Below the pieces are notes generated by a model, which ran no database searches, was not told where the DNA came from, and saw nothing but the letters and a program-made list of their open reading frames with translations. This document shows, in pieces, positions 375-35,941 of a DNA stretch of 64,000 nt. Position 1 is the first letter of the stretch; each line of letters opens with the position of its first letter. The translations under genes and the position numbers were made by a program. The stretch lies in the NCBI GenBank assembly GCA_020629965.1, contig JAHDCG010000006.1:1-64000 (forward strand), given 5' to 3'. The DNA is from Saprospiraceae bacterium. Lineage in GTDB: Bacteria; Bacteroidota; Bacteroidia; Chitinophagales; Saprospiraceae.

Positions 375-3300
375 CTACGGCTGTCTTGCAATCACCACTT
401 TAAACTGCTGCGGGGTCTCCCCTTCGGGCAATACGCGGAGGAAATACGTGCCGCCGGGTAAATCGGAAACATTCGCGCTGCCGTCGTAAATCTCGCGCAG
501 TACGACCTTTCCGTCCGTTGCCGTCAGGATGATTTCGGTGCGCACATTCGCAAATTCACCCAAATCCAACTGCAATACTGCGCTCGTCGGGTTGGGATAG
601 ACGCGGATTTTTTGCGCGGCAATTTCACCGGTCGAGGTGTCTTCGTCGGCTGTGATTTCCAAACTGTGGTACATGTCTGCCGTGCAGGTTTCGTGTACGT
701 TCATATTCGTCAAATGCAGGTGTACTTCGTACATTCCGGGCGTATCGTAAGTCGTGACGGGTGCGGAGTGGTCGGAAGTTTCGCCGTTGCCGAAATCCCA
801 GGCGCGGTGCGTCGCCGTCGGAGTTTGGTCGTGGAAGTGGACTTCTTCGCCCTCCGTTGCGGTCACGGGCGCGGTCATGTCGGGCGTCATTTTGTTGCTG
901 TAAAAAGTCGCCGTTTCCGTTTGGCAGTCGCCTTGGTAGCAGGTTTCCAAAGTCACGGTGTGCATTCCGCCGTCTGAGTAGGCGTGTACGGGAGATGCTT
1001 CCGTCGAGGTCGTGCCGTCGCCGAAATCCCACGTCCACGAGTCGATTTCCGCTTCTTCGGGCGTGGCAAAGCGACGCGTACCGTCGCAGAGGTCATCGTT
1101 AAAAACGCGCAAATTACCGTTAAAGTCGCTGCCCGAAGTACAGGCATAACTTGCCGCGAAACCGCTGCCTGTGCCGCCGCCGAAAGTGACTTCGACAATG
1201 GTTAAAGCCGAACCGCTCGACGAAATCACCCCGCCGCCGCCGGGCAATTCATTACCCGTGTAAAAACCGATAATCCCCGCATTGGTGTCCGCACCGTCAT
1301 AAATTAAAATGTAATCTTCGTCGGAATAATCGAACTCCGTAAATACCAAACCGATGGTACCCGACTCGCGCAGCAGCGTAATCGTTCCGAAATTTTCGGA
1401 TAAATAATCCGCATCCGGTCCGCCCGAGTCGTACAAATCTCCCGAACACAGACTGATGTAAGTGATTTCGTCGCCGCCCGGTATATTTTCTTCCTCGCAG
1501 GTTTTATCCAAAATGATGACCACGTCGTTTTGAATGTAAGTGTCGCAACCGACTTCGTTGCAGACTGTCAAAGACACATCGACCGTATCACTCGCCGTGA
1601 AATTGATAATCGGATTTTGCGAGTCGGAGGTAAAACCCTGTCCGAAATCCCAAAACCAACTGTCGGGCGCACCGAGACTCTCGTCGATGAAAAGAAACGG
1701 TTCGTTAATACACACACTGTCACCGATGACGCTGAAATTTGCCGTCGGCAAAATCGGGTCGGCATTACAACTAAAAGTCGCCGCAAATCCGCTCAGTTGG
1801 TTAAAGTGTCCCGTGTATTCCTGCAAAGTCAAAATGCCCGAGGTCGCAACGAGCGTTTCTCCCGCCAATTCGTTACCCGTAAAATTGCCTAAGAAATTCC
1901 CCGTAAACGGCTCACCGTCATAGACATAGAGGAAATCGGCGTGCTCTTCGTAGTTAAATTCAGAGAAAGTAATCGTTACCTCTTCCGCACCCGGCGGTGC
2001 GATAATCAGGACACCGTTGTTGCCTTCGAGATAGTCCGCCGTCGGGCCGCCCGAGTCATAGACGTTGCCTTCGCAGACCGTAATCGTTTCTGTATTATGC
2101 TCCGGCGGAATGTTTTGCGTGTAGCAATCAGTCTCGACGGTCACGTATTCCGTCAGGGTCAAAGTATCGCAACCGAGGCTGTTGCAGGCAATAAGTTGTA
2201 CCGTATAACTGCCGTCAGCGGCGTAGGTATGCTGCGGATTTTGCTCCGTCGAGGTCGTGCCGTCACCCAAATCCCAGACCCAGGTCGTTGCCGTATTCAG
2301 CGTCAAATCGTTGAACTGTACGGGTAGATTGCCGCAAACAAATTCGGGGCTTGCCGCAAAATTCGTTTGTACCGGCGCAATGACAAACAACGTAATTTGA
2401 ATATCGACGGTGGGTTGCAGCGGGTCATTTGTCAGCAAAGTCACGACTAAGTTGTAAGTGCCGGTCGCCATGCCTTCGGAGTCGATAAAAATGTCCAAAA
2501 CCTGACTGCCGTCGATGCCGACCGTGCCGCTTTCGGGCGTGACGGTCAGCACATCTTCGACCGGTGTACCTAAAGGAATACTCATCGTATTCGGATTGTC
2601 GGGTAAAGCAAAAGTGCCTTCGGCAATGACCTGACCGTTACCCGCATTTAAGACGCTGAAGAAAGTCAAAGCACCGTCGCCGAAGCTGTCGAAAAGGTTC
2701 AGCGTGTAAGTATCGCCCGTCGGTAAGCCGGTAATCGTTTCCGTATAATCGGTGAATGCGGCGTAAAAATCTTCCGAAAAGACGACTATCTCGCCCGCAC
2801 TGTTGGTGACATTCCAAGAAAACTCGCCGCCCCAATTATCGGTGGTAAAGTTAAAAATAAAACCCGACGCATCGGTCGCAGAGGCGGCAGAATAGGTCAA
2901 ATCCGCCTCGCCGACATTGCCGATATTGACGTTGAGGGTTTCGGTTTCGCCTTCGATCAATTCGACCGTAAATGTCAGGGGATCAACGGTCAGCGACGGT
3001 GCGGCTACGCCCGTGCCGGTCAGGGTGATAACGACCGGGTCGCCGGCATTATTAGTCAGCGTAATCGTTTCGCTGTAAGCGGTAATCGCCGTCGGAGTGA
3101 AGGTTACGGTGACGTTTTGAGCCTCGCCGGGGGCAAGATTTAAGTCGCCGCTCGTGCTTAAAGCAAACTCGGATTGGGTGCTTGCCAAGCCCGTGACCGT
3201 TAGATTATCCGTGCCGTCATTGGTGACGGTCAGAGATAATTCGGAGCTGCCGCCGACCTGTATTTCGCCGAAATCCAAGTCCGTTGCCGTCACGTCGATT

Positions 3301-7837: not shown

Positions 7838-8011
7838 TTTGTTTAAGGGTTTAGGCGTTTAATCGTTTAGACATACAGCAGGACGCCGGTTGTAAAACCG
7901 TAAAAAAGCCTCGTGATTTAAGGTCACGAGGCTTTTTTGTTTAAGAATTTAAGCGTTTAGAAATGCAGCAGTTGCGGTTATTTAAACGCCTAAACCTACT
8001 AAACGCCTTAA
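7838..8011. repeat. GTTTAGGC-type octamer array, inverted copies around a terminator
   Basis: Degenerate octamers of the form GTTTAGGC/GTTTAATC lie at 7838-7870, and their reverse complement (TAAACGCCTAAACC) lies at 7980-8011. The terminator at 7902-7938 stands between the two arms. The same arrangement recurs at 15829-15903 and 31272-31365. Confidence 0.75.
7902..7938 (+). terminator. Intrinsic terminator
   Basis: Perfect stem AAAAAGCCTCGTGA / TCACGAGGCTTTTT with a 7-nt loop and T-run, 68 bp after the stop of the exported protein gene ending at 7834. Confidence 0.9.
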
Positions 8012-10552: not shown

Positions 10553-10628
10553 GTTTTATTGAGACTTTAGATATCAGACATTAGATTTTAGACTTTTAGC
10601 GGTTTTTATCCGGTGTTTATACGATATA

Positions 10629-15828: not shown

Positions 15829-15903
15829 GTTTAGGCGTTTATGCGTTTAATCGTTTAGGTGCGACGGGCGATTAAACGCCTAAACTTGCTAAACTTTTAA
15901 ACA
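15829..15903. repeat. GTTTAGGC octamer array with inverted arm
   Basis: Three to four units of GTTTAGGC/GTTTATGC/GTTTAATC are followed after a GTGCGACGGGC centre by the complement (ATTAAACGCCTAAACTTGC). Same family as 7838-8011 and 31272-31365. Confidence 0.75.
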
Positions 15904-25367: not shown

Positions 25368-25401
25368 AGCCGCCGGCACGTCCCAAAACGTACCGGCGGC
25401 T
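25368..25401. terminator. GC-rich hairpin, probable terminator
   Basis: AGCCGCCGG-c-ACGT pairs with ACGT-a-CCGGCGGCT around a short loop. There is no T-run on the plus side, only a pyrimidine array; the minus side has TTCTCGT. It may stop transcription of the TonB receptor gene (minus) or of the methyltransferase gene (plus). Confidence 0.45.
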
Positions 25402-25453
25402 CTCCTCTCTCCTCTCTCCTCTCTCCTCTCTCCTCTCTCCTCTCTCCTCTCTC
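25400..25453. repeat. (CTCTCCT)n heptamer array
   Basis: About seven perfect units of the 7-mer CTCTCCT, ending at the base before the stop codon of the TonB receptor gene. The same array with the same TCTCTCCTAAAA border is at 35437-35483, and a degenerate one abuts the stop of the PLP enzyme at 13184-13206. Confidence 0.9.
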
Positions 25454-27964
25454 CTAAAACCTCAACTTCACCCCCAACAAAAAGTTAGCCGGCGCCTGCG
25501 GGTACAAGCCCGTCAGATTGAACTGATTTTCATTGTCCGTATCCGTTTCTTTTTGCCCGTAGGGGTCGCCCTCGATCGGGTCGAAAGACGCGACGCGAAA
25601 GCGGTAAATCCAACCGGCTGCGCTGTAACGCGTGCTTGTAAAGTTGCGCACCAAGAAATTTATCGTCACTTCTTTGATGTACTTTTTCGGGCGCAAAGTA
25701 TAGCGCAAACCCGTGTCCGCCGTCCAATAAGAAGGCAAAGCCGCGTCTTCGTTCGAGCTGTTATCCAAGAATTGTTTTCCGACAAATTTATTGGCGAGTG
25801 AGAAAGTCAAGTCTTGTCCTTCCGCGTTCGGCAGCAAGTGCACGAGCATTTCCGCGCCGCTGACAATCGACGGTGACAAAGCCAAATCCGTGTCTTCGCG
25901 CAGCACGGCATCCTGTGCACCGGTGTCCCAGTTGTCGATGTATTCCGTGAAAGAGGCGATGCGATTCTGACTCAGAGTCAGGTTTCCGTTAAACTCCAAA
26001 TAGTCCGATAGTTTCGCGCCGCCGACCACCTCTACACCCGCGCGGTACGCCTCGGGTACGTTGGTGCGCACGTAAGAGCCGACGTCGGTGAGCTGCCCCG
26101 TCGGTACGAGCGCGTTTTCGTAATCCATGTAGTAAAAGTTCACGTTGAGCGCAGCATTTTTCCATGCTTTGCGGACACCGATTTCGGTATCGTACAGCGT
26201 TTCGTGCTGCGGTATGTCGGTGATGCCGTCTCCGTCCGTGTCGCCTGCGTCGGTGAAATCGCTGCGGTTCGGCTCGCGGTTGGCGACTGCGAAAGAGGCG
26301 TAGGCGGACAGATTTTTCGCAAAATTGTAATTCAAACCGACTTTCGGATTGACGAAGTTATAGGTGTGCTGTTGTGTAATGTCCAGCAAAGTATTGTCGA
26401 TGCCGTCGATGCGGTAGTCGAGGGCGCGGTATTGCACATCCAAAAAGGCATTCAGCGCGGGCGTGACGGCAAAGTTTGTTTTGGAGTAAATATTAAAATC
26501 CGTTTTTTCGCCCGTGTTGTCGTAGTAGCGATTGCCCTGCTCGGTGTCGCCGGTGTAACGCGCCCAAATGACCTCGCCGTAGTGGTCGCCGATGTAGCGA
26601 TTCCAAGCCCCGCCGAGGGTGGTGCTGATTTTTTGGTTGTCGCTGCGGTAAGTGACGTTGTAAGTCGCGCCGTAAAAATGATTATCCAACCAACGGCGTT
26701 GAATGAGGTCGGGAGAAAAATTCGTGACGGTATCGACCAAAGGCGGAAATTCCAAACCGAAATCCGGATAATTCGCGCCGCCTTCATACAACTCAAAAAA
26801 GCCGAAGCCTCGGGTATAATGCAGCGCGGCATTGGCGTCGAGGTTGCGCGAGAGTTGACGACCGTAGAGCAGTTGATAGTGCTTTTGCGTGTAATCATCG
26901 ACCTCGTTGTCGTGCGGCTCACCGGGTTTGGCGGTGCCGGCGGAGTTGAAGCGGCGCAAATCGGGGTCGTCGCCGTATTGCAGCGGCACACCGTTCCAAG
27001 CCTGATAAGTGACTTCGTGACCCGCAAAATGATTGAGCCGCAGCACGTCTTTTTCGCCGTGATAAGCGGCGGTCAGAAAGTAAGAATTGAGATCGACCGA
27101 AGCGCGGTCGATGTAGCCGTCGGAAGTCAAAGAAGAGGCTCTGCCCTCGAAGGAAAATTTGTCGTTAAGCATACCGGAACCGAACTGCACGTTACCTTTC
27201 AGCGTCCCGAAAGAGCCGACCGAACCGTTGACTTCCGTGAAGGCGACGGGGTCCGGATTGGCGGTTCCGATGTTGATGGTCGCACCGAAAGCACCCGCTC
27301 CGTTGGTCGAAGTACCGACACCGCGCTGCACCTGCACACTGCTCGTCGAAGAACTCAAATCGGGCATATTCACCCAAAAAACGCCCTGCGACTCGCTGTC
27401 ATTGACGGGAATGCCGTTAATGGTGACGTTGATGCCCGTCGGCTCGACCCCGCGAATGCGAATGCCCGTGTAGCCGATGCCCGTGCCCGCATCCGAAGTG
27501 ACAACGGCGGAGGGCGTGTAGCGCAGCAGATAGGGCATGTCCTGACCGAGGTTGCGCTCTTCGAGTTTTTCCTCATCGACGTCGGTGAAGGCGAAAGGTG
27601 CATTTTCACCGGCGCGGGTTGCGGAGACGATGACCTCCTCGGCGGCGTAGCTTTTTTCGGCTAAATTGACGGAGACTTGCTGGCGTTTTTCACCGACGGG
27701 AAAAACTGCCGCTTTGCGCATGGTCTCGTAGCCTAAGTAACTGAAAATCAGCTCGTAACTCGCACCGGCGGTCAGATTTTGCAAACTGTATTTGCCTTGT
27801 AAGTCCGTAACCGTGCCCGTCGTCGTGCCGGCGATGAGGACGGAGGCACCGACCAAAGGTTCGTCATTTTCGGACGTAACGGTGCCGTAGATTTGCGCTG
27901 TTTGTGCCGTCAAAAAGACGGGTAACAACAGCGCGAAAATTGCTGTAAATAATTTAAAATTCAT
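25454..27964 (-). CDS. TonB-dependent outer-membrane receptor under a TPP riboswitch; probable thiamine (precursor) uptake
   Basis: 836 residues. Signal peptide ending FLTAQ; carboxypeptidase-like regulatory domain at 22-105 (YGTVTSENDEPLVGASVLIAG); plug domain at about 110-235 (IRIRGVEPTGINVTINGIPV, QVQRGVGTSTNGAGAFGATI); then a 22-strand-type barrel ending in the aromatic LLGVKLRF. It should import a ligand across the outer membrane with TonB-ExbBD energy. The upstream TPP riboswitch (28078-28219) ties it to thiamine, its phosphates or a pyrimidine/thiazole precursor, as proposed for Bacteroidota thiamine receptors. Only the receptor is in this locus; the inner-membrane transporter must be elsewhere. 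Confidence 0.92.
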   Translation of the reverse strand: MNFKLFTAIFALLLPVFLTAQTAQIYGTVTSENDEPLVGASVLIAGTTTGTVTDLQGKYSLQNLTAGASYELIFSYLGYETMRKAAVFPVGEKRQQVSVNLAEKSYAAEEVIVSATRAGENAPFAFTDVDEEKLEERNLGQDMPYLLRYTPSAVVTSDAGTGIGYTGIRIRGVEPTGINVTINGIPVNDSESQGVFWVNMPDLSSSTSSVQVQRGVGTSTNGAGAFGATINIGTANPDPVAFTEVNGSVGSFGTLKGNVQFGSGMLNDKFSFEGRASSLTSDGYIDRASVDLNSYFLTAAYHGEKDVLRLNHFAGHEVTYQAWNGVPLQYGDDPDLRRFNSAGTAKPGEPHDNEVDDYTQKHYQLLYGRQLSRNLDANAALHYTRGFGFFELYEGGANYPDFGLEFPPLVDTVTNFSPDLIQRRWLDNHFYGATYNVTYRSDNQKISTTLGGAWNRYIGDHYGEVIWARYTGDTEQGNRYYDNTGEKTDFNIYSKTNFAVTPALNAFLDVQYRALDYRIDGIDNTLLDITQQHTYNFVNPKVGLNYNFAKNLSAYASFAVANREPNRSDFTDAGDTDGDGITDIPQHETLYDTEIGVRKAWKNAALNVNFYYMDYENALVPTGQLTDVGSYVRTNVPEAYRAGVEVVGGAKLSDYLEFNGNLTLSQNRIASFTEYIDNWDTGAQDAVLREDTDLALSPSIVSGAEMLVHLLPNAEGQDLTFSLANKFVGKQFLDNSSNEDAALPSYWTADTGLRYTLRPKKYIKEVTINFLVRNFTSTRYSAAGWIYRFRVASFDPIEGDPYGQKETDTDNENQFNLTGLYPQAPANFLLGVKLRF

Positions 27965-28077
27965 TGAAATGTAAGTAAACTCTGTTGAATAATGCCGAAA
28001 GTCAGGGGTTGACTCCGGTTTTATCCAAACCTTCGCGGGGAAGCGATTCCGCTCGGAGAGAAGCGGAAAGAAGCATC

Positions 28078-28219
28078 CTCATTTCCCTTCCCGGGATTAT
28101 CCGGGCAGGTTCGAAGGGTATTATCTCAGGACTTATTTTGAGATTTTAGATGTTAGACGTTAGATTTTAGACTGCTGTCTTTACCTGATTTCTCGTAAAA
28201 AAAGTCCACCCCTAATGAG
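28078..28219 (-). promoter_or_regulatory. TPP riboswitch (THI element) with enlarged P3 arm
   Basis: Minus strand, in order: P1 strand CTCATT (28219-28214); GGGGTGG; P3 base GGACTT; about 67 nt of insert; AAGTCC; the invariant CTGAGA; ATACCC; TTCGAACCTG; CCCGGATAATCCCGGG (P4/P5 core); AAGGGAA; and closing P1 strand AATGAG (28083-28078). All the universally conserved blocks of the aptamer are present. A hairpin TTCCGCT/AGCGGAA follows at about 28043-28066 and may be the expression platform. The P3 insert contains TTAGAYG heptamers (28141-28172). Confidence 0.92.
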
Positions 28220-28225
28220 CAGGGG

Positions 28226-28302: not shown

Positions 28303-31248
28303 TTATACTCTTACTAACTTAAAAATCACCCGCTCCCCTCCTTCCCCCGTCACCTCCAGAAAATAAACACCGCGCGCTAAATCGCCTACCGAAAAATTCA
28401 GAAAATGACTGCCGATTGCAAGTTCTTCGTGCAGCAGATTTTTGAGCAGGATGCCGCGCCCGTCGTACACATTCAGCGTGACCGCCGTCGGTAAAGTCAG
28501 CGCAAAACGCACATCGAGCAGGTCTTGTACGGGGTTGGGAAAGACGTTGAGGTCGAGAAAAAATTCGCCGGCGTAGGCTGCCGGGGCGGGAATATTCGTC
28601 GCGCCGGGACTGCCGAAAGGGTGTACGGATTTCCAATTTTTTTGCCGGTCCGTGTCCAAGTCGGGGCGCAGTAATTCCAGAGTGCCGCCGTTGCCGTTCG
28701 CGGTCTGCGGCTGCGGCGGGGCGGAGGTGTAGGTCATATTTCCTCTGCTTTCGCCGCGTTCGTTGTACAGCGTGACGGTGCCTTTATCTTCGGGCAGATT
28801 GAAATTGAAATCGGCATTCAGCGGCTCGATTTCGGGATAAACGGCGCGAAATTTTTCGCCGTCTTTCGAAATTATCAGATAGCCTTTACCGGGGATGAGC
28901 GTACCGGCGGGCAGCACCAAACTGTCCGGACTCGCCGCCTCGCGCAACACCCAACCCGAAATATCGACTTCGTGGTCGAGGTCATTATACAGTTCTATCC
29001 AGTCTTCGGTGTTCCGGTTTTCGGCGGAGTGATAGTTGACTTCGTTGATATTCACACCTTTGTCGGGGCTGACAAAATTTCTGAAAACGGGGATGAGCGT
29101 AAAGTCTTTTTTCAGGTCAAAAACCAAAGTCGGATCGGTACTCAATGTGTCGCCTTCCCAGTGCAGAAAAACGGCGTTCGGCTCGGCTTGTGCGGTCACA
29201 ACAATCGGTACGGTTTCAAAATAATCACCGCTCCAGCTTTCTTCCTGTATGTCCAATCGATTGTTAATCAACACTTTACCGTGTGCAAAATCGGGGCTTT
29301 GCAAATCTAAAGTATGATAAGCGGGCAATGCCAACTCGTCGAGCATGTAGCCTTTTATCCACTCGGGGCGTTCGGTTGCGAAGAGGGTCAAACGGTCGTG
29401 ATGCTCTGCAAATTCCGCAAAATCTCCGTCCCAACGCTCATAATGCGCGGGCAGTTCCGCGATAACACTCGCCTTCGTTTCGGCGATGCGGGCGAGTACA
29501 TTTTCGGGCAGAAAACGGGAATTTAACTCGTCCGCAAAACGATTTACAAAAATGTTGCGAAACTCGGTGCTCTCCAGCAGTTTTCGGAAAAGAAAAGTGG
29601 ACCATGCGGGATTTGACCAGGAGGTCGGTTCGGTTACCAAAGCAAATTCGAGCGTATTGTGGCCGTGCGCATTCGGAAACCAGCCGGCAAAACCAAAATC
29701 AGTATCGTATAATATCCACCGCCATTTTCGCCCCGGCGCGCGCCAAAATTTGATATTATTGCCGGGCCAGTCCATGTTGGCCGCGTAGATTTGTGCCGTT
29801 TGATACATCGCATAATTTTCAATATCTATTTGTTCTTCAATGTATTCATAAACCTCGGGGTCGGCGGCGGTGCCGTTTTCCAGTATTTCCAACATCTCAA
29901 AATAGGCGGTATTATCACCGTCCACCACGGTACCGTCAAATACCAAAAGGTCGATTTCTTCCGGCTCGACGTCGTAACGCGAGGCTAAAAAATGCTTACT
30001 GACTTTTTCACGCATATTATACATACCCCAATATTCGCCGTTGAGATAAGTCGCCGCCGAGCGGTGCGCCTGTATTTCGATGCCCGCGCCCTCCAGCAAT
30101 CCGGTGTACATAATGTCGCGAATATTGGAAGCCAAAAAATCGTTGCCCGAGTTGCGCAGCACTATCGACTGAAATTCATCAAAATCGCGAGTCTCGAAAA
30201 ACGGGTAGTTTATCTCCTCCGTGCCGTATTGTTTACGCGCAAAGAACGCCAAAGAACGCTGAGGATTCGAGCGACTGTAACCGCCGAAAATCTTTACGCC
30301 GGCGTCAAATTCCGTGTGATCCGTGCCGTCCGGTTCGTAAAAAGAAAAATGCGCGGGACGCTCCCAATCCTGATGAAAATTGGCACCGCTGTACGGCGGG
30401 TCGGATGCATAGGTGTAGCCGAAAGCATAAATTCCCGTATTTTCGTCGAAAAAATTATCGGGTTCGGTGATAATCGAAACTACGGGCAAAGTGTGCGACA
30501 CATCGACCAAAAAAGCGCGTGACCGAGTGCGCGAAGGCAGATAATTTTCGAGAAAAACCCGCGCACGCAGCACCGTTTTTTCATTGAGTTGTAAACCTGC
30601 GGCGGGAAAAACCGCCGAGTTTTCGTCGGGCAAAAGCGCGTCGGTCGTGTAGCGAATGATACCGCCCGGCACTCCGGTCGTGAGTTGCAACACCAACGGT
30701 GCGCAGACACCGCCGGGGTGCGAAAAGCTGATATCGTCGGGTAAAATGCCCGCAAAACCCTGCGCGGGATTGGCATTTCCGGGCGTCGTTTCGGACAAGA
30801 CAGCCGGTTCGTTTCCGCCCGCCGGCAGACCGTAGGCATAGTACTGCAAACCGCCGGGCAGAGTCAACGTGTGCGCCTCCGTGCCGTCGGGTCGGTAGAG
30901 GTGCAACGTTTCGCCGTTGTCCGAAATTTTAAAATCGGTGTGCAAATTAAAAGTATTCTCCGTGCGATTTTTGTCGGAAGCCCACACGCGCAAATAACTG
31001 CCGGGGAAAAGATTTTTGTCGGGAAAAATCCACGGTTCGCTGCCCTCGGGGTCGTCGGTTATCGACCAACCGGCGAGGTTGACGACGGCATCGCCGGGAT
31101 TGTGAATTTCAAACCAATCGGGGCTGTCGCCGTCTTGGTCGAGACGGTCGTGATTGGCGGAGACCGCCTCGTTAATCAGCAAATTTTGCGCTTGATTATT
31201 CAGGGAAAAAAGAAAAAACGGGAATAAAAGTATAATTCGGGTAAGCAT
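28303..31248 (-). CDS. CotH-kinase-like surface protein with lamin-tail domains and T9SS sorting domain (copy A)
   Basis: 981 residues. Signal peptide (ends NNQA). First lamin-tail domain at about 22-130 (NEAVSANHDRLDQDGDSPDWFEIHNPG); chitobiase-like beta domain at about 175-245 (GGIIRYTTDALLPDENS); CotH kinase-like domain at about 255-640 with the spaced motifs LRNSGNDF, YLNGEYWGMYNMREKVSKHF and PGRKWRWILYDTDFGF; a second lamin-tail domain at about 745-850 (NEVNYHSAENRNTEDWIELYND). The C-terminal T9SS domain (NVFPNPVQDLLDVRF) ends the protein. CotH proteins of spores phosphorylate coat proteins; whether this extracellular type is active is not known. Tandem paralogue of the next gene, also 981 residues. 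Confidence 0.88.
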   Translation of the reverse strand: MLTRIILLFPFFLFSLNNQAQNLLINEAVSANHDRLDQDGDSPDWFEIHNPGDAVVNLAGWSITDDPEGSEPWIFPDKNLFPGSYLRVWASDKNRTENTFNLHTDFKISDNGETLHLYRPDGTEAHTLTLPGGLQYYAYGLPAGGNEPAVLSETTPGNANPAQGFAGILPDDISFSHPGGVCAPLVLQLTTGVPGGIIRYTTDALLPDENSAVFPAAGLQLNEKTVLRARVFLENYLPSRTRSRAFLVDVSHTLPVVSIITEPDNFFDENTGIYAFGYTYASDPPYSGANFHQDWERPAHFSFYEPDGTDHTEFDAGVKIFGGYSRSNPQRSLAFFARKQYGTEEINYPFFETRDFDEFQSIVLRNSGNDFLASNIRDIMYTGLLEGAGIEIQAHRSAATYLNGEYWGMYNMREKVSKHFLASRYDVEPEEIDLLVFDGTVVDGDNTAYFEMLEILENGTAADPEVYEYIEEQIDIENYAMYQTAQIYAANMDWPGNNIKFWRAPGRKWRWILYDTDFGFAGWFPNAHGHNTLEFALVTEPTSWSNPAWSTFLFRKLLESTEFRNIFVNRFADELNSRFLPENVLARIAETKASVIAELPAHYERWDGDFAEFAEHHDRLTLFATERPEWIKGYMLDELALPAYHTLDLQSPDFAHGKVLINNRLDIQEESWSGDYFETVPIVVTAQAEPNAVFLHWEGDTLSTDPTLVFDLKKDFTLIPVFRNFVSPDKGVNINEVNYHSAENRNTEDWIELYNDLDHEVDISGWVLREAASPDSLVLPAGTLIPGKGYLIISKDGEKFRAVYPEIEPLNADFNFNLPEDKGTVTLYNERGESRGNMTYTSAPPQPQTANGNGGTLELLRPDLDTDRQKNWKSVHPFGSPGATNIPAPAAYAGEFFLDLNVFPNPVQDLLDVRFALTLPTAVTLNVYDGRGILLKNLLHEELAIGSHFLNFSVGDLARGVYFLEVTGEGGERVIFKLVRV

Positions 31249-31271: not shown

Positions 31272-31365
31272 TGTTGTTTAGGCGTTTAGGCGTTTAGGCG
31301 TTTAGGCGTTTAAAATGCCCGGTTTTTCTTAAACGCTTAAACCTCCTAAACGCTTAAACCGCAAA
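31272..31365. repeat. GTTTAGGC octamer array with inverted arm
   Basis: Five uninterrupted GTTTAGGC units, a short centre (AATGCCCGGTTTTTC), then the complementary units TAAACGCTTAAACC and CTAAACGCTTAAACC. It fills the gap between the two CotH genes and may fold into a long hairpin on the transcript. Confidence 0.85.
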
Positions 31366-31369
31366 GAAT

Positions 31370-34315
31370 CTACATTTTCACAATTTTAAAAATCTTTCGC
31401 TCCTCGCCTTCCGCCGTCAGTTCCAAAAAATGAAAGCCCGTCGGCACATCATCGGTGTGGAAAATCAAAAAGTTGTCGCCGACGGCAAGGGTCTCGCGCA
31501 GCAATTCTTTGACCAAAGTACCGCGACTGTCATACATACGCAAAGCGACAGCGGCGGGCAAAGTCATTTTAAAACGCACATCCAGTACCTCGCCAACCGG
31601 ATTCGGAAAAATATTGACCTCCGTAAAAACATCGCCGTAGTAAGCCGGCGGCGCGGGGATATTCGTCGCGCCCGGACTGCCGAACGGGTGTACGGATTCC
31701 CAGTTTTTCTGCATCTGCGCGTCCAAATCGGGGCGCAGCAACTCTAAAGTGCCGCCCTGACCGCGGGCCGCCTGTGACCACGGCGGAGAGGCGGCGTAAC
31801 TTGCCGTTGCTTTTTCTTCACCGGTGTGATTTGACAATGAAAATGTACACTTTTCGTCCGGCAGACTCAAAGCGGGTTCGGTTTGCACAACTCTGACTCC
31901 GGAATAAACGGTACTAAACCGGGTCGCATTTTGCGCCAAAACCAAGTAGCCTTTATCCGCAATTATCGTTCTTTCCGGCACCGTAAATTCTCCTTCACCT
32001 TCCGTTTCGCGCAGCGTCCAACCCGAAATATCGGCAGCAAAATCGTTATCGTTGTAAAGTTCTATCCAATCGCCCGCATCACGATTTGCGGCGGATTGAT
32101 AGTTGATTTCGTTGATAATAATACCGTCGGCAGGCTGCTCGAAAACTCTGAAAACAGGGATAAGTTTGGTATCGCTTTTCAAATCAAAAATCAGCGTTTC
32201 CTCGCTGCTTGTAATGTCTCCTTCCCAACCCAAAAATATCGCTCCCGGCTCGGCAATCGCCGTTACCGTTATCGGTACGGTCTCAAAATAATCGCCGCGC
32301 CAATTTTCCTCTTGAATATCCAAACGATTGTTAATCAGCACTTTGCCGCGCTCATAATCGACATTTTCAAGGTGCAATTCGTGGTGCGCCGGCAGCTCGA
32401 AAACTTCTTCGATGTGCTGCTTCAGCCAAAACGGACGCCGCTCGGCAAAGAGGTTCATTTTATCCGTTTGCCAATCGAACATCCAGATTCCTTCGCCCCA
32501 ACGGTCGTAGTGCGCGGGCACTTCGTCGGCGATAATTTCCTGCGTTTTTTCAATTTGCGCCAGAACATTTTCGGGCAAAAACCGCGAGTTCATTTCATCC
32601 GCAAAGCGATTGATGAAGGCATCACGGAAATCCGGATTTTCGACCGTTTTACGCAGCAGAAAAGTGGACCAAGGCGGGTTAGGCCAATTCGGACCGTCGG
32701 GTTCGAGCGCAAAAGCAAGCGTGTTATTGCCGTGGTCTGCGTTGCCGAAATTAGAAAAACCGAAATCCGTATCGTACAAAATCCATCGCCATTTGCGACC
32801 CGGGGCTTTCCAAAATTTAATATTATTGCCGGGCCAGTCGTCGTTATCGGCGTAGATTTGTGCAACCTGATACATCATAAAATTGTCGAGGTCGATGCGC
32901 TCCGCAACGTAGTCATAAACAAGCGGATTTGCCAAAGAATTATTTTCCATAAACTCCAAAAGCTCGTAGTATTCCGTATTGTCACCGTCCACGACCTCAC
33001 CGCCGAAATCCAAAATCGTCACCTCGTCGGCATCGACGTCAAAACGCGAAGCCAAGAAATGCCTGCTGACTTTTTCGCGCAAGTGATACATGCCCCAATA
33101 CTCGCCGTTGAGGTAAGCCGCCACCGAGCGGTGCGCCTGTATTTCCAAGTCCGCCCCCTCCAGCAAGCCGGTGAACATAATGTCACGGAAGTTGCTGCGC
33201 AGCCAATCGTTACCGGAATTGCGCAGCACCAAAGACTGAAAATCGGAGAACTCGCGGGTGTCAAAAAACGGATAATTAAACCCCTCCGTGCCGTAGCGAT
33301 TGCGGGCGAAAAGCGATAAGGAACGTTGGTCGTTTGCCCGCGACCAACCACCGAAAATTTTAGTGCCGCAGTCAAATTCTACCTTCCCGTTGCCGTCGTT
33401 TTCGTAGAAAGAAAAATGCAGCGGACGCTCCCAATCTTCCCAAAAATTGGCACCGAAATTCGGTTGATTTTCGCTGTAATCGTTTCCGAGCACGTAAATT
33501 CCGGTCTCGTCATCGAAAAAATTATCGGGTTCGGTGATGAGCGAAACGACGGGTAAACTGTGTGACTCGTTGACGAGAAAAAAGCGGGATTGCGTTTTGG
33601 AAGGCAAATAACCGTCCCGAAAAACGCGGGCGCGAATGACTTTTTTGGCGGTAATCGCCAAGCCGCCGGACGGGAAAATGTCAGAGTTTGCGTCGGGTAA
33701 AGTCGCGTCGGTGGTGTAGCGAATGTGGCTGTTCGGCACTTCGGTCGTCAGTTTCAGGGACAAAGGATTGCTGCTGCCGCCGGGGTGCGAAAACTCGATA
33801 TCGGCGGGCACGACACCGATAAAACCCTGCGCGGGATTGGCGGCACCGGGCGTCGTTTCGGGCAAGACCGCACCTTGATTTGTACCCGCCGGCAAGCCGA
33901 AGGCGTAGTATTCCAAAGCGGCGGGCACGACTAAAGTGTGCGCAACATTGCCGTCGGGGCGACGTAAATACAGCGTCTCGCCGCCGCCGGAGATTTTAAA
34001 ATCGGTGTGCAAATGACCGGCGTTATTCGTGCGGTTTTTGTCCGATGCCCATACGCGCAGATAGCCGCCGGCGGCGAGGTTCATATTCGGAAAAATCCAC
34101 GGTTCGGCGTTTTCGGGGTCGTCGGTGAGAGACCAATTTGCGAGGTTGACGGGTGCGTCTCCGGGGTTGTAAATTTCCAACCAATCGGGGCTGTCGCCGT
34201 CTTCGTCCGACAGGTCGAAGTTAGCCGACACCGCTTCGTTGATACGCAGGGTTTGGGCTTGGCTCTTCGAGCAAAAAGCAACGCAGAAAGAGAGTAATAA
34301 AATTCGATACAGCAT
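31370..34315 (-). CDS. CotH-kinase-like surface protein with lamin-tail domains and T9SS sorting domain (copy B)
   Basis: 981 residues with the same order as copy A: signal peptide (ends KSQAQ), lamin-tail (NEAVSANFDLSDEDGDSPDW), chitobiase-like beta domain, CotH domain (LRNSGNDW, YLNGEYWGMYHLREKVSRHF, PGRKWRWILYDTDFGF), second lamin-tail (NEINYQSAANRDAGDWIELYND) and T9SS domain (NIFPNPVGEVLDVRF). Identity with copy A is high throughout, highest in the CotH core. The equal length shows an old duplication without net indels. First gene of the pair; only 121 bp of repeat DNA separates them. Possible roles are surface modification or binding; unproven. Confidence 0.88.
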   Translation of the reverse strand: MLYRILLLSFCVAFCSKSQAQTLRINEAVSANFDLSDEDGDSPDWLEIYNPGDAPVNLANWSLTDDPENAEPWIFPNMNLAAGGYLRVWASDKNRTNNAGHLHTDFKISGGGETLYLRRPDGNVAHTLVVPAALEYYAFGLPAGTNQGAVLPETTPGAANPAQGFIGVVPADIEFSHPGGSSNPLSLKLTTEVPNSHIRYTTDATLPDANSDIFPSGGLAITAKKVIRARVFRDGYLPSKTQSRFFLVNESHSLPVVSLITEPDNFFDDETGIYVLGNDYSENQPNFGANFWEDWERPLHFSFYENDGNGKVEFDCGTKIFGGWSRANDQRSLSLFARNRYGTEGFNYPFFDTREFSDFQSLVLRNSGNDWLRSNFRDIMFTGLLEGADLEIQAHRSVAAYLNGEYWGMYHLREKVSRHFLASRFDVDADEVTILDFGGEVVDGDNTEYYELLEFMENNSLANPLVYDYVAERIDLDNFMMYQVAQIYADNDDWPGNNIKFWKAPGRKWRWILYDTDFGFSNFGNADHGNNTLAFALEPDGPNWPNPPWSTFLLRKTVENPDFRDAFINRFADEMNSRFLPENVLAQIEKTQEIIADEVPAHYDRWGEGIWMFDWQTDKMNLFAERRPFWLKQHIEEVFELPAHHELHLENVDYERGKVLINNRLDIQEENWRGDYFETVPITVTAIAEPGAIFLGWEGDITSSEETLIFDLKSDTKLIPVFRVFEQPADGIIINEINYQSAANRDAGDWIELYNDNDFAADISGWTLRETEGEGEFTVPERTIIADKGYLVLAQNATRFSTVYSGVRVVQTEPALSLPDEKCTFSLSNHTGEEKATASYAASPPWSQAARGQGGTLELLRPDLDAQMQKNWESVHPFGSPGATNIPAPPAYYGDVFTEVNIFPNPVGEVLDVRFKMTLPAAVALRMYDSRGTLVKELLRETLAVGDNFLIFHTDDVPTGFHFLELTAEGEERKIFKIVKM

Positions 34316-35350: not shown

Positions 35351-35436
35351 TAGTTACACATTTAATAAAATCAAGGATGAACGAAAGAACCGAGACAAGG
35401 AGAAATTTTGATGAGAAGCAGGAATATGTGCCCTCT

Positions 35437-35483
35437 CTACTCCCTCCTCTCTCCTCTCTCCTCTCTCCTCTCTCCTCTCTCCT
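35437..35483. repeat. (CTCTCCT)n heptamer array
   Basis: About six units ending TCTCTCCTAAAA, 11 bp upstream of the thioesterase ATG. Same unit and border as 25400-25453. As it lies in the translation-initiation region, copy number could affect expression. Confidence 0.85.
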
Positions 35484-35494
35484 AAAATAAAAAC

Positions 35495-35941
35495 ATGCAA
35501 GAACAACTAAAAAAATATCCCGTCCGCATTCAAATCCCCGTAGCCTGGGGCGACATGGACGCAGCGGCGCACGTCAACAATACCGTCTATCTGAAATGGG
35601 GCGAAACGGCGCGGATTGCTTACTTCGAGGCGGCGGGCATCGACATCGGCTTTAAGTCGGCAGCAGGACCGATACTCGCTTGGCAGGACTGCAAATATAT
35701 TTTTCCGATGACTTTTCCGGATACGGCTGTCGTCGGTATTCGCTGCACGGAAATACAAAGCGACCGTCTGTTTTTCGAGGCGGCGATGTTTACGGAAAAG
35801 CACGGGCGCATTGCGGCGATAAATAAGTTTTGTATCGTGCCTTATGATTTTCAAAAGTTAGTGAAGGTGGAGATTCCGGAGGCGTGGTTGAGGGGGATCG
35901 AGGGGTTGGAAGGAGGTGAAATTAAAAGTTCCGGAATATGA
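35495..35941 (+). CDS. Hotdog-fold acyl-CoA thioesterase
   Basis: 148 residues. The 4-hydroxybenzoyl-CoA thioesterase/YbgC pattern is clear: VAWGDMDAAAHVNNTVYLKWGETARIAYFEAAG at residues 12-44, with the catalytic-type Asp (D17) and the H-V-N-N-T motif. Members hydrolyse acyl-CoA esters in the cytoplasm. The stop codon overlaps the next start (ATGA at 35938), so the two genes are translationally coupled. The substrate is unknown. Confidence 0.88.
   Translation: MQEQLKKYPVRIQIPVAWGDMDAAAHVNNTVYLKWGETARIAYFEAAGIDIGFKSAAGPILAWQDCKYIFPMTFPDTAVVGIRCTEIQSDRLFFEAAMFTEKHGRIAAINKFCIVPYDFQKLVKVEIPEAWLRGIEGLEGGEIKSSGI

Follow-up and report, generated by a model that had tools for sequence, protein, structure and literature searches.

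The DNA analysed here, a window of 64,000 nt, carries on its minus strand the blocks of a TPP aptamer whose P3 arm contains tandem copies of a seven-base unit, which raises the question of what such an arm is and where it came from. The first-pass annotation had offered two answers, namely that a repeat able to change its copy number inside P3 tunes folding, or that P3 is simply a tolerated landing site for a repeat family. We consider it very probable that this is the TPP riboswitch of a gene for a TonB-dependent receptor of the thiamine type, and that its P3 acquired a whole lineage-specific dispersed heptad element.

All of the aptamer blocks that had been read from the minus strand were found at their places, including CTGAGA, ATACCC, GAACCTG, and GGATAATCC, and exactly 67 nt separate the P3 arms GGACTT and AAGTCC, as had been claimed. 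The aptamer and its located parts are as follows:

28067..28223, minus strand: TPP riboswitch aptamer (RF00059), 105 of 105 model positions, 67 nt between the basal P3 arms
28219-28214, minus strand: 5' block of P1, CTCATT (sequence match)
28212-28206, minus strand: block GGGGTGG (sequence match)
28202..28207, minus strand: 5' arm of basal P3, GGACTT (predicted pairing probability 0.95)
28129..28134, minus strand: 3' arm of basal P3, AAGTCC (sequence match)
28083-28078, minus strand: 3' block of P1, AATGAG (sequence match)

In a local covariance-model scan, RF00059 matched the aptamer over 105/105 positions with 49.8 bits (E 5.8e-9), and the alignment placed 66 inserted nt in the loop of P3, whereas an Rfam search of the whole window at the gathering threshold, which is 54.3 for RF00059, gave no match. 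The model check suggested by the first-pass annotation came out full-length and significant locally but yielded nothing at the curated cut-off, under which the score probably falls because of the long P3. Rfam matches of CRISPR-DR57, suhB, sR38, and Xanthine that overlap the aptamer are far under their own cut-offs and are attributed to chance. The CUGAGA, ACCC, and GAACCUG blocks occur together with the P1, P2, P3, and P4/P5 helices, all of which are formed in the minimum-energy fold, with a predicted pairing of 0.93-0.99. Judged by sequence and predicted structure, 28067-28223 on the minus strand is a true TPP riboswitch, and it would be expected to be functional, with ligand sensing intact despite the insert.

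The gene downstream of the aptamer is encoded on the same strand:

25454..27964, minus strand: TonB-dependent outer-membrane receptor of 836 aa, with TonB barrel, plug, and CarbopepD_reg_2 domains

This receptor is probably the gene regulated by the aptamer, with thiamine or a precursor as its probable substrate. A TPP aptamer is located a few hundred bases upstream in many of the 80 loci with receptor homologues, which supports a thiamine-type outer-membrane receptor. A (CTCTCCT)x8 array lies directly past the stop codon of the receptor gene (window 25400-25455).

One copy of a dispersed element makes up most of the sequence that separates the P3 arms, next to a stretch that does not belong to it:

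28136..28187, plus strand: dispersed-element copy of ~52 bp, TTTTGAGAT-(TTAGAYN)x4-GCTGTYTTNACYTG, inside P3 and antisense to the riboswitch RNA
28188..28201, minus strand: part of P3 outside the element, TTTTTACGAGAAAT; its TTTT and GAGA pair with TCTCAAAA at the end of the element, which lengthens the P3 stem

The copy is complete, with the full sequence TTTTGAGATTTTAGATGTTAGACGTTAGATTTTAGACTGCTGTCTTTACCTG, and its four heptads are imperfect, reading TTAGATG, TTAGACG, TTAGATT, and TTAGACT. The heptads first noticed in P3 are real, since the window contains 10 matches to TTAGAYGTTAGAYG with up to two mismatches, compared with 1.09 expected and at most five in shuffles, but the insert is the whole of a longer element. 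In the host genome (G000; 6.52 Mb, 99.4% complete, 0.32% contamination, the one genome for the species), the P3 arm used as a BLAST query has at least 45 matches including itself, at least ~39 of which are strong, spanning roughly 33-52 nt at 88-100% identity. Among named relatives, those nearest to G000 belong to the Saprospiraceae. Genome-wide, TTAGAYGTTAGAYG has 700 matches with up to one mismatch versus seven for the reversed control, and a 21-base core pattern has 372 matches in G000, 75 in G001, the other genome of the genus, and five in 39 further relatives; these copy numbers come from pattern and BLAST searches, and the BLAST-derived counts are lower bounds.

The anatomy of the element, drawn from 66 distinct copies, comprises a GAGAT edge, TTAGAYN units, the last of which is most often TTAGACT, and a weaker far edge near GCCGTTTTGACTTG. 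The number of units is four in 39/66 copies, the modal value, and ranges from three to eight. Over all copies the edges are weakly conserved, at ~0.7-1.3 bits per position for GAGA and 0.0-0.8 for the far edge, and they look more uniform in the 20 loci that were picked for their similarity to the P3 copy than in the rest. Several candidate properties of the element were rejected. Its own-fold z is ~0 on both strands, which does not fit a self-folding hairpin or terminator. Insertion into pre-existing hairpins was discarded as well, the true flanks having a mean of -13.5 kcal/mol and mismatched flanks -14.0 kcal/mol; flank complementarity thus gives no sign that P3 was targeted for being a hairpin. 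Mobilisation of the REP/RAYT type is not favoured, with an element that is non-palindromic and a genome in which only one Y1_Tnp domain was found (30.6 bits).

The related heptad units that had been reported at 10.57 and 35.03 kb were found, both of them at gene edges:

10567..10594, plus strand: element copy of four units, at a stop codon
35031..35072, plus strand: element copy of five units plus one degenerate unit, at a stop codon (GDSL lipase gene)

Gene-edge placement was sampled with these two copies and loci L001-L030 and L191-L210. The GAGAT end stands just upstream of a start codon in 26/66 copies (ORFs of at least 100 codons), with ATG in 24 and the start codon mostly 11-16 nt from the first heptad, and at a stop codon in 24/66, the start or stop edge together accounting for 50/66. 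The GAGAT end lies at a median of 6 nt from the ORF edge and the opposite end at 113 nt (57 copies, Wilcoxon p ~1e-6); the ORFs are mechanical, and the stop codons of the element in all frames inflate the stop-side effect but do not account for the ATG within 11-16 nt. Many of the frames that follow start-adjacent copies resemble what we take to be thymidine kinase, MutL, GTP cyclohydrolase, ClpX, and DNA polymerase III. Heptads with a stop codon close all three reading frames, and this could be relevant where a copy borders a gene. The P3 copy is exceptional, being 173 nt from the TonB gene and so not at a gene edge. Lineage-specific heptad elements of Bacteroidota, set at gene edges, could act on translation or on gene boundaries, with the P3 of TPP riboswitches as a repeatedly used second site; we hold this wider proposal to be unlikely, and, if true, the P3 arm would represent heptad elements co-opted as part of a regulatory RNA.

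Other short-unit arrays occur in the window. A near-perfect (TGACGGT)x12 heptamer array is located at 39-121, and a (CCTCTCT)x7.4 array (35432-35483) ends ~12 nt ahead of an ATG at 35495. Repeats of 8 nt of the GTTTARGC type are located at 31276-31312, 7841-7869, and 15829-15859, one of them just upstream of a CotH gene, and there may be an octamer family beside the heptamers in the window. Two adjacent CotH-kinase proteins (28303-31248 and 31370-34315) are both exactly 981 aa long and carry lamin-tail domains as well as a sorting tail of the type IX system.

Comparison of P3 with the orthologue in the sister species G001, which the first-pass annotation had proposed, reveals arms that are not identical. 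The two aptamers differ in one base outside P3, and the G001 TonB receptor (L081) is 65% identical to that of the window. The G001 P3 has 95 nt unrelated to the window's, with TTCAAATTC-type units answered by TTTGAATTT, and its content recurs at dispersed places in G001, some of it in both orientations, which is what a hairpin element would give. Read from the sequences, near-identical orthologous cores carry different dispersed elements in P3, and the history of the two arms is likely one of independent capture or of replacement. In the sister species, the stretch from the aptamer to the TonB gene additionally contains a further hairpin as well as a heptad-like run, GTGATTCGTCATTCGTAATTC (L061, ~2205-2285, minus strand), both absent from the window.

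In the mechanism proposed here, a dispersed heptad element has come to lie in the loop side of P3, whose length is free, leaving the ligand-binding core and the basal helix of P3 unchanged, so that ligand sensing would be kept and the insert may be nearly neutral. Other Bacteroidota carry different, mutually unrelated heptad arrays in P3, often as hairpins, and P3 has thus tolerated such arrays recurrently.

In 95 aptamers, the length of P3 ranges from 8 to 104 nt, with a median of 18, while P4/P5 stays within 13-19 nt and J does not exceed 4 nt; P3 is the only length-free part of the aptamer. The first four positions of P3 are paired in 85-100% of 91 aptamers, by several pair types. Pattern searches at the level of the order, the family, and the class, covering up to 400 genomes at each level, yielded further long arms; the pattern demands exact core letters, so that the long-arm counts are lower bounds. 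Among 21 distinct P3s of at least 66 nt with basal pairing, a 7-nt period is significant in 10 (p < 0.01, dinucleotide shuffles) and borderline in four more (0.01-0.02), and lags other than seven are significant in 0-4 of the 21; among 58 P3s of 20-65 nt, the 7-nt period is significant in one. The heptads themselves differ, and include GTTATTY (G472), TTCATCA/CGATRAA (G617, G242), AGTCCTC (G575), AATTTGA (L123), TTTTAGC (G967), CTTAAAA (G737), and TTGAGAA (L096). The very long P3 arms of L221, L223, and L228 look as if built from 8-nt units, e.g., GGGAAATT in L228.

The P3 content is clearly dispersed in its own genome in G000, G001, G472, G617, and G250, is similar to a few places in its own genome in G596, G388, and G661, and is met once, as the arm itself, in G574, G660, G014, G279, and G370. 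The arms of G014, G279, and G370 are non-periodic and form a contrast set, and the single-occurrence arms as a whole may be local expansions or old. Since the sister species carries a different insert and other lineages carry other heptads, it is well supported, at the level of sequence, that lineage-specific heptad elements have repeatedly been tolerated in P3, with about a dozen cases in Bacteroidota, and the earlier idea of a landing site is borne out by G001 and these other lineages.

The effect of the insert was assessed on the predicted fold. The core is predicted to pair as well around the native insert as around a GAAA loop (P1 0.96, P2 0.93, P3 0.95, P5 0.99). Core pairing is 0.958 with the native insert versus a mean of 0.697 with dinucleotide-shuffled inserts, 2% of which are as good, and a mean of 0.63 is obtained when other dispersed copies with their own flanks are swapped into P3. 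The good native value arises because the non-element TTTTTACGAGA pairs with the element end. This predicted fold fits selection that keeps P3 closed around the insert, as one case seen post hoc. When the number of heptads is set from 0 to 10, P1 (0.91-0.96) and P5 (0.99) remain nearly constant, and only P2 and the closure of P3 vary, the latter non-monotonically from 0.30 to 0.95 in this simple model.

These predictions bear on a contingency-type tuning of the riboswitch, in which the number of heptads in P3 would vary between cells and adjust folding speed or switching. Tandem heptads can slip, the dispersed copies do range in unit number, and the closure of P3 does respond to it in the model; however, the unit number of the P3 copy, four, is the modal one, its imperfect heptads hinder slippage, the sister P3 differs by element and not by number, and P1 and P5 pairing hardly shift. 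The claim that copy number tunes folding is thus not upheld, and we regard it as highly improbable. Functional co-option, where a long P3 or a heptad-binding protein would improve or add regulation and the arm would be retained for that reason, could account for a native insert that closes P3 better than 98% of shuffles and for the heptad P3s of relatives, whose folds are more stable than those of shuffles (z -2.4 to -8.4), and it has been proposed that a translational regulator binds heptad repeats located at start codons (PMC4679880). Nevertheless, selection merely for a closed P3 accounts for the same data, the heptad sequences are completely different between lineages, and the arms of most relatives are short, so that co-option appears quite unlikely.

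The arm could also have expanded in place, with local heptamer slippage making P3 grow and its likeness to the genome-wide family being a matter of convergence. This would agree with the simple local P3 arrays of some relatives, e.g., (TTGAGAA)3 in L096, and with the several long P3s that are unique in their own genome. However, the match in the window does not end with the heptads but continues into GAGAT on one side and GCTGTYTTNACYTG on the other, which slippage would not yield, and the different P3 of the sister species suggests arrival of the element by insertion and not growth in place; expansion in place is, in our judgement, very unlikely.

Acquisition of a whole dispersed element by P3, the reading preferred here, accounts for the origin of long P3 arms in some bacterial TPP riboswitches. 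With about a dozen lineages as natural replicates, such inserts allow asking how a conserved ligand-binding RNA survives foreign repeats. Riboswitches of this kind are missed by standard Rfam thresholds, as that of the window is uncalled at the gathering score. Moreover, the findings suggest that heptad elements at gene edges form a large class in Bacteroidota that has been little described, and they extend the cyanobacterial theme of heptad repeats in structured RNAs to riboswitches.

No bacterial TPP riboswitch with a dispersed element as its P3 was found in the literature searched, nor was any paper on heptad elements in a riboswitch found in the open-access literature. Dispersed STRR heptamers were reportedly described by Vioque in 1997 inside a tolerated region of cyanobacterial RNase P RNA; that system is alike in having dispersed heptamers in a structured RNA, while the RNA, the phylum, and the repeat differ. 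Direct repeats of TAACTGA occur in Beggiatoaceae, Cyanobacteria, and a few Bacteroidetes, where they form intergenic arrays that cluster a short way (a few nt) ahead of start codons and in some cases directly follow stop codons, and the paper that describes them makes no mention of riboswitches (MacGregor, PMC4679880). The TTAGAYN element shares this gene-edge placement, but its unit is different (reverse complement NRTCTAA), its modal number is four, and it has its own edges. Fungal TPP riboswitches have a long and variable P3 of ~150 nt on average, and the Rfam TPP model loses those with a P3 above ~60 nt (PMC11683625); compared with RF00059, including its fungal members, the aptamer blocks and architecture are the same here, whereas P3 can be recognised as a copy of an element dispersed in the genome. 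In the Nostoc trnL intron, the P6b arm is built on 7-nt repeats, the classes of which have been switched independently (PMC4476775). The P3 arms resemble the P6b of this cyanobacterial group I intron in being a peripheral RNA arm with 7-nt repeats on both sides of the stem and in the replacement of one class by another, but P6b belongs to a self-splicing intron and has two repeat classes, whereas the P3 arms differ in almost every lineage.
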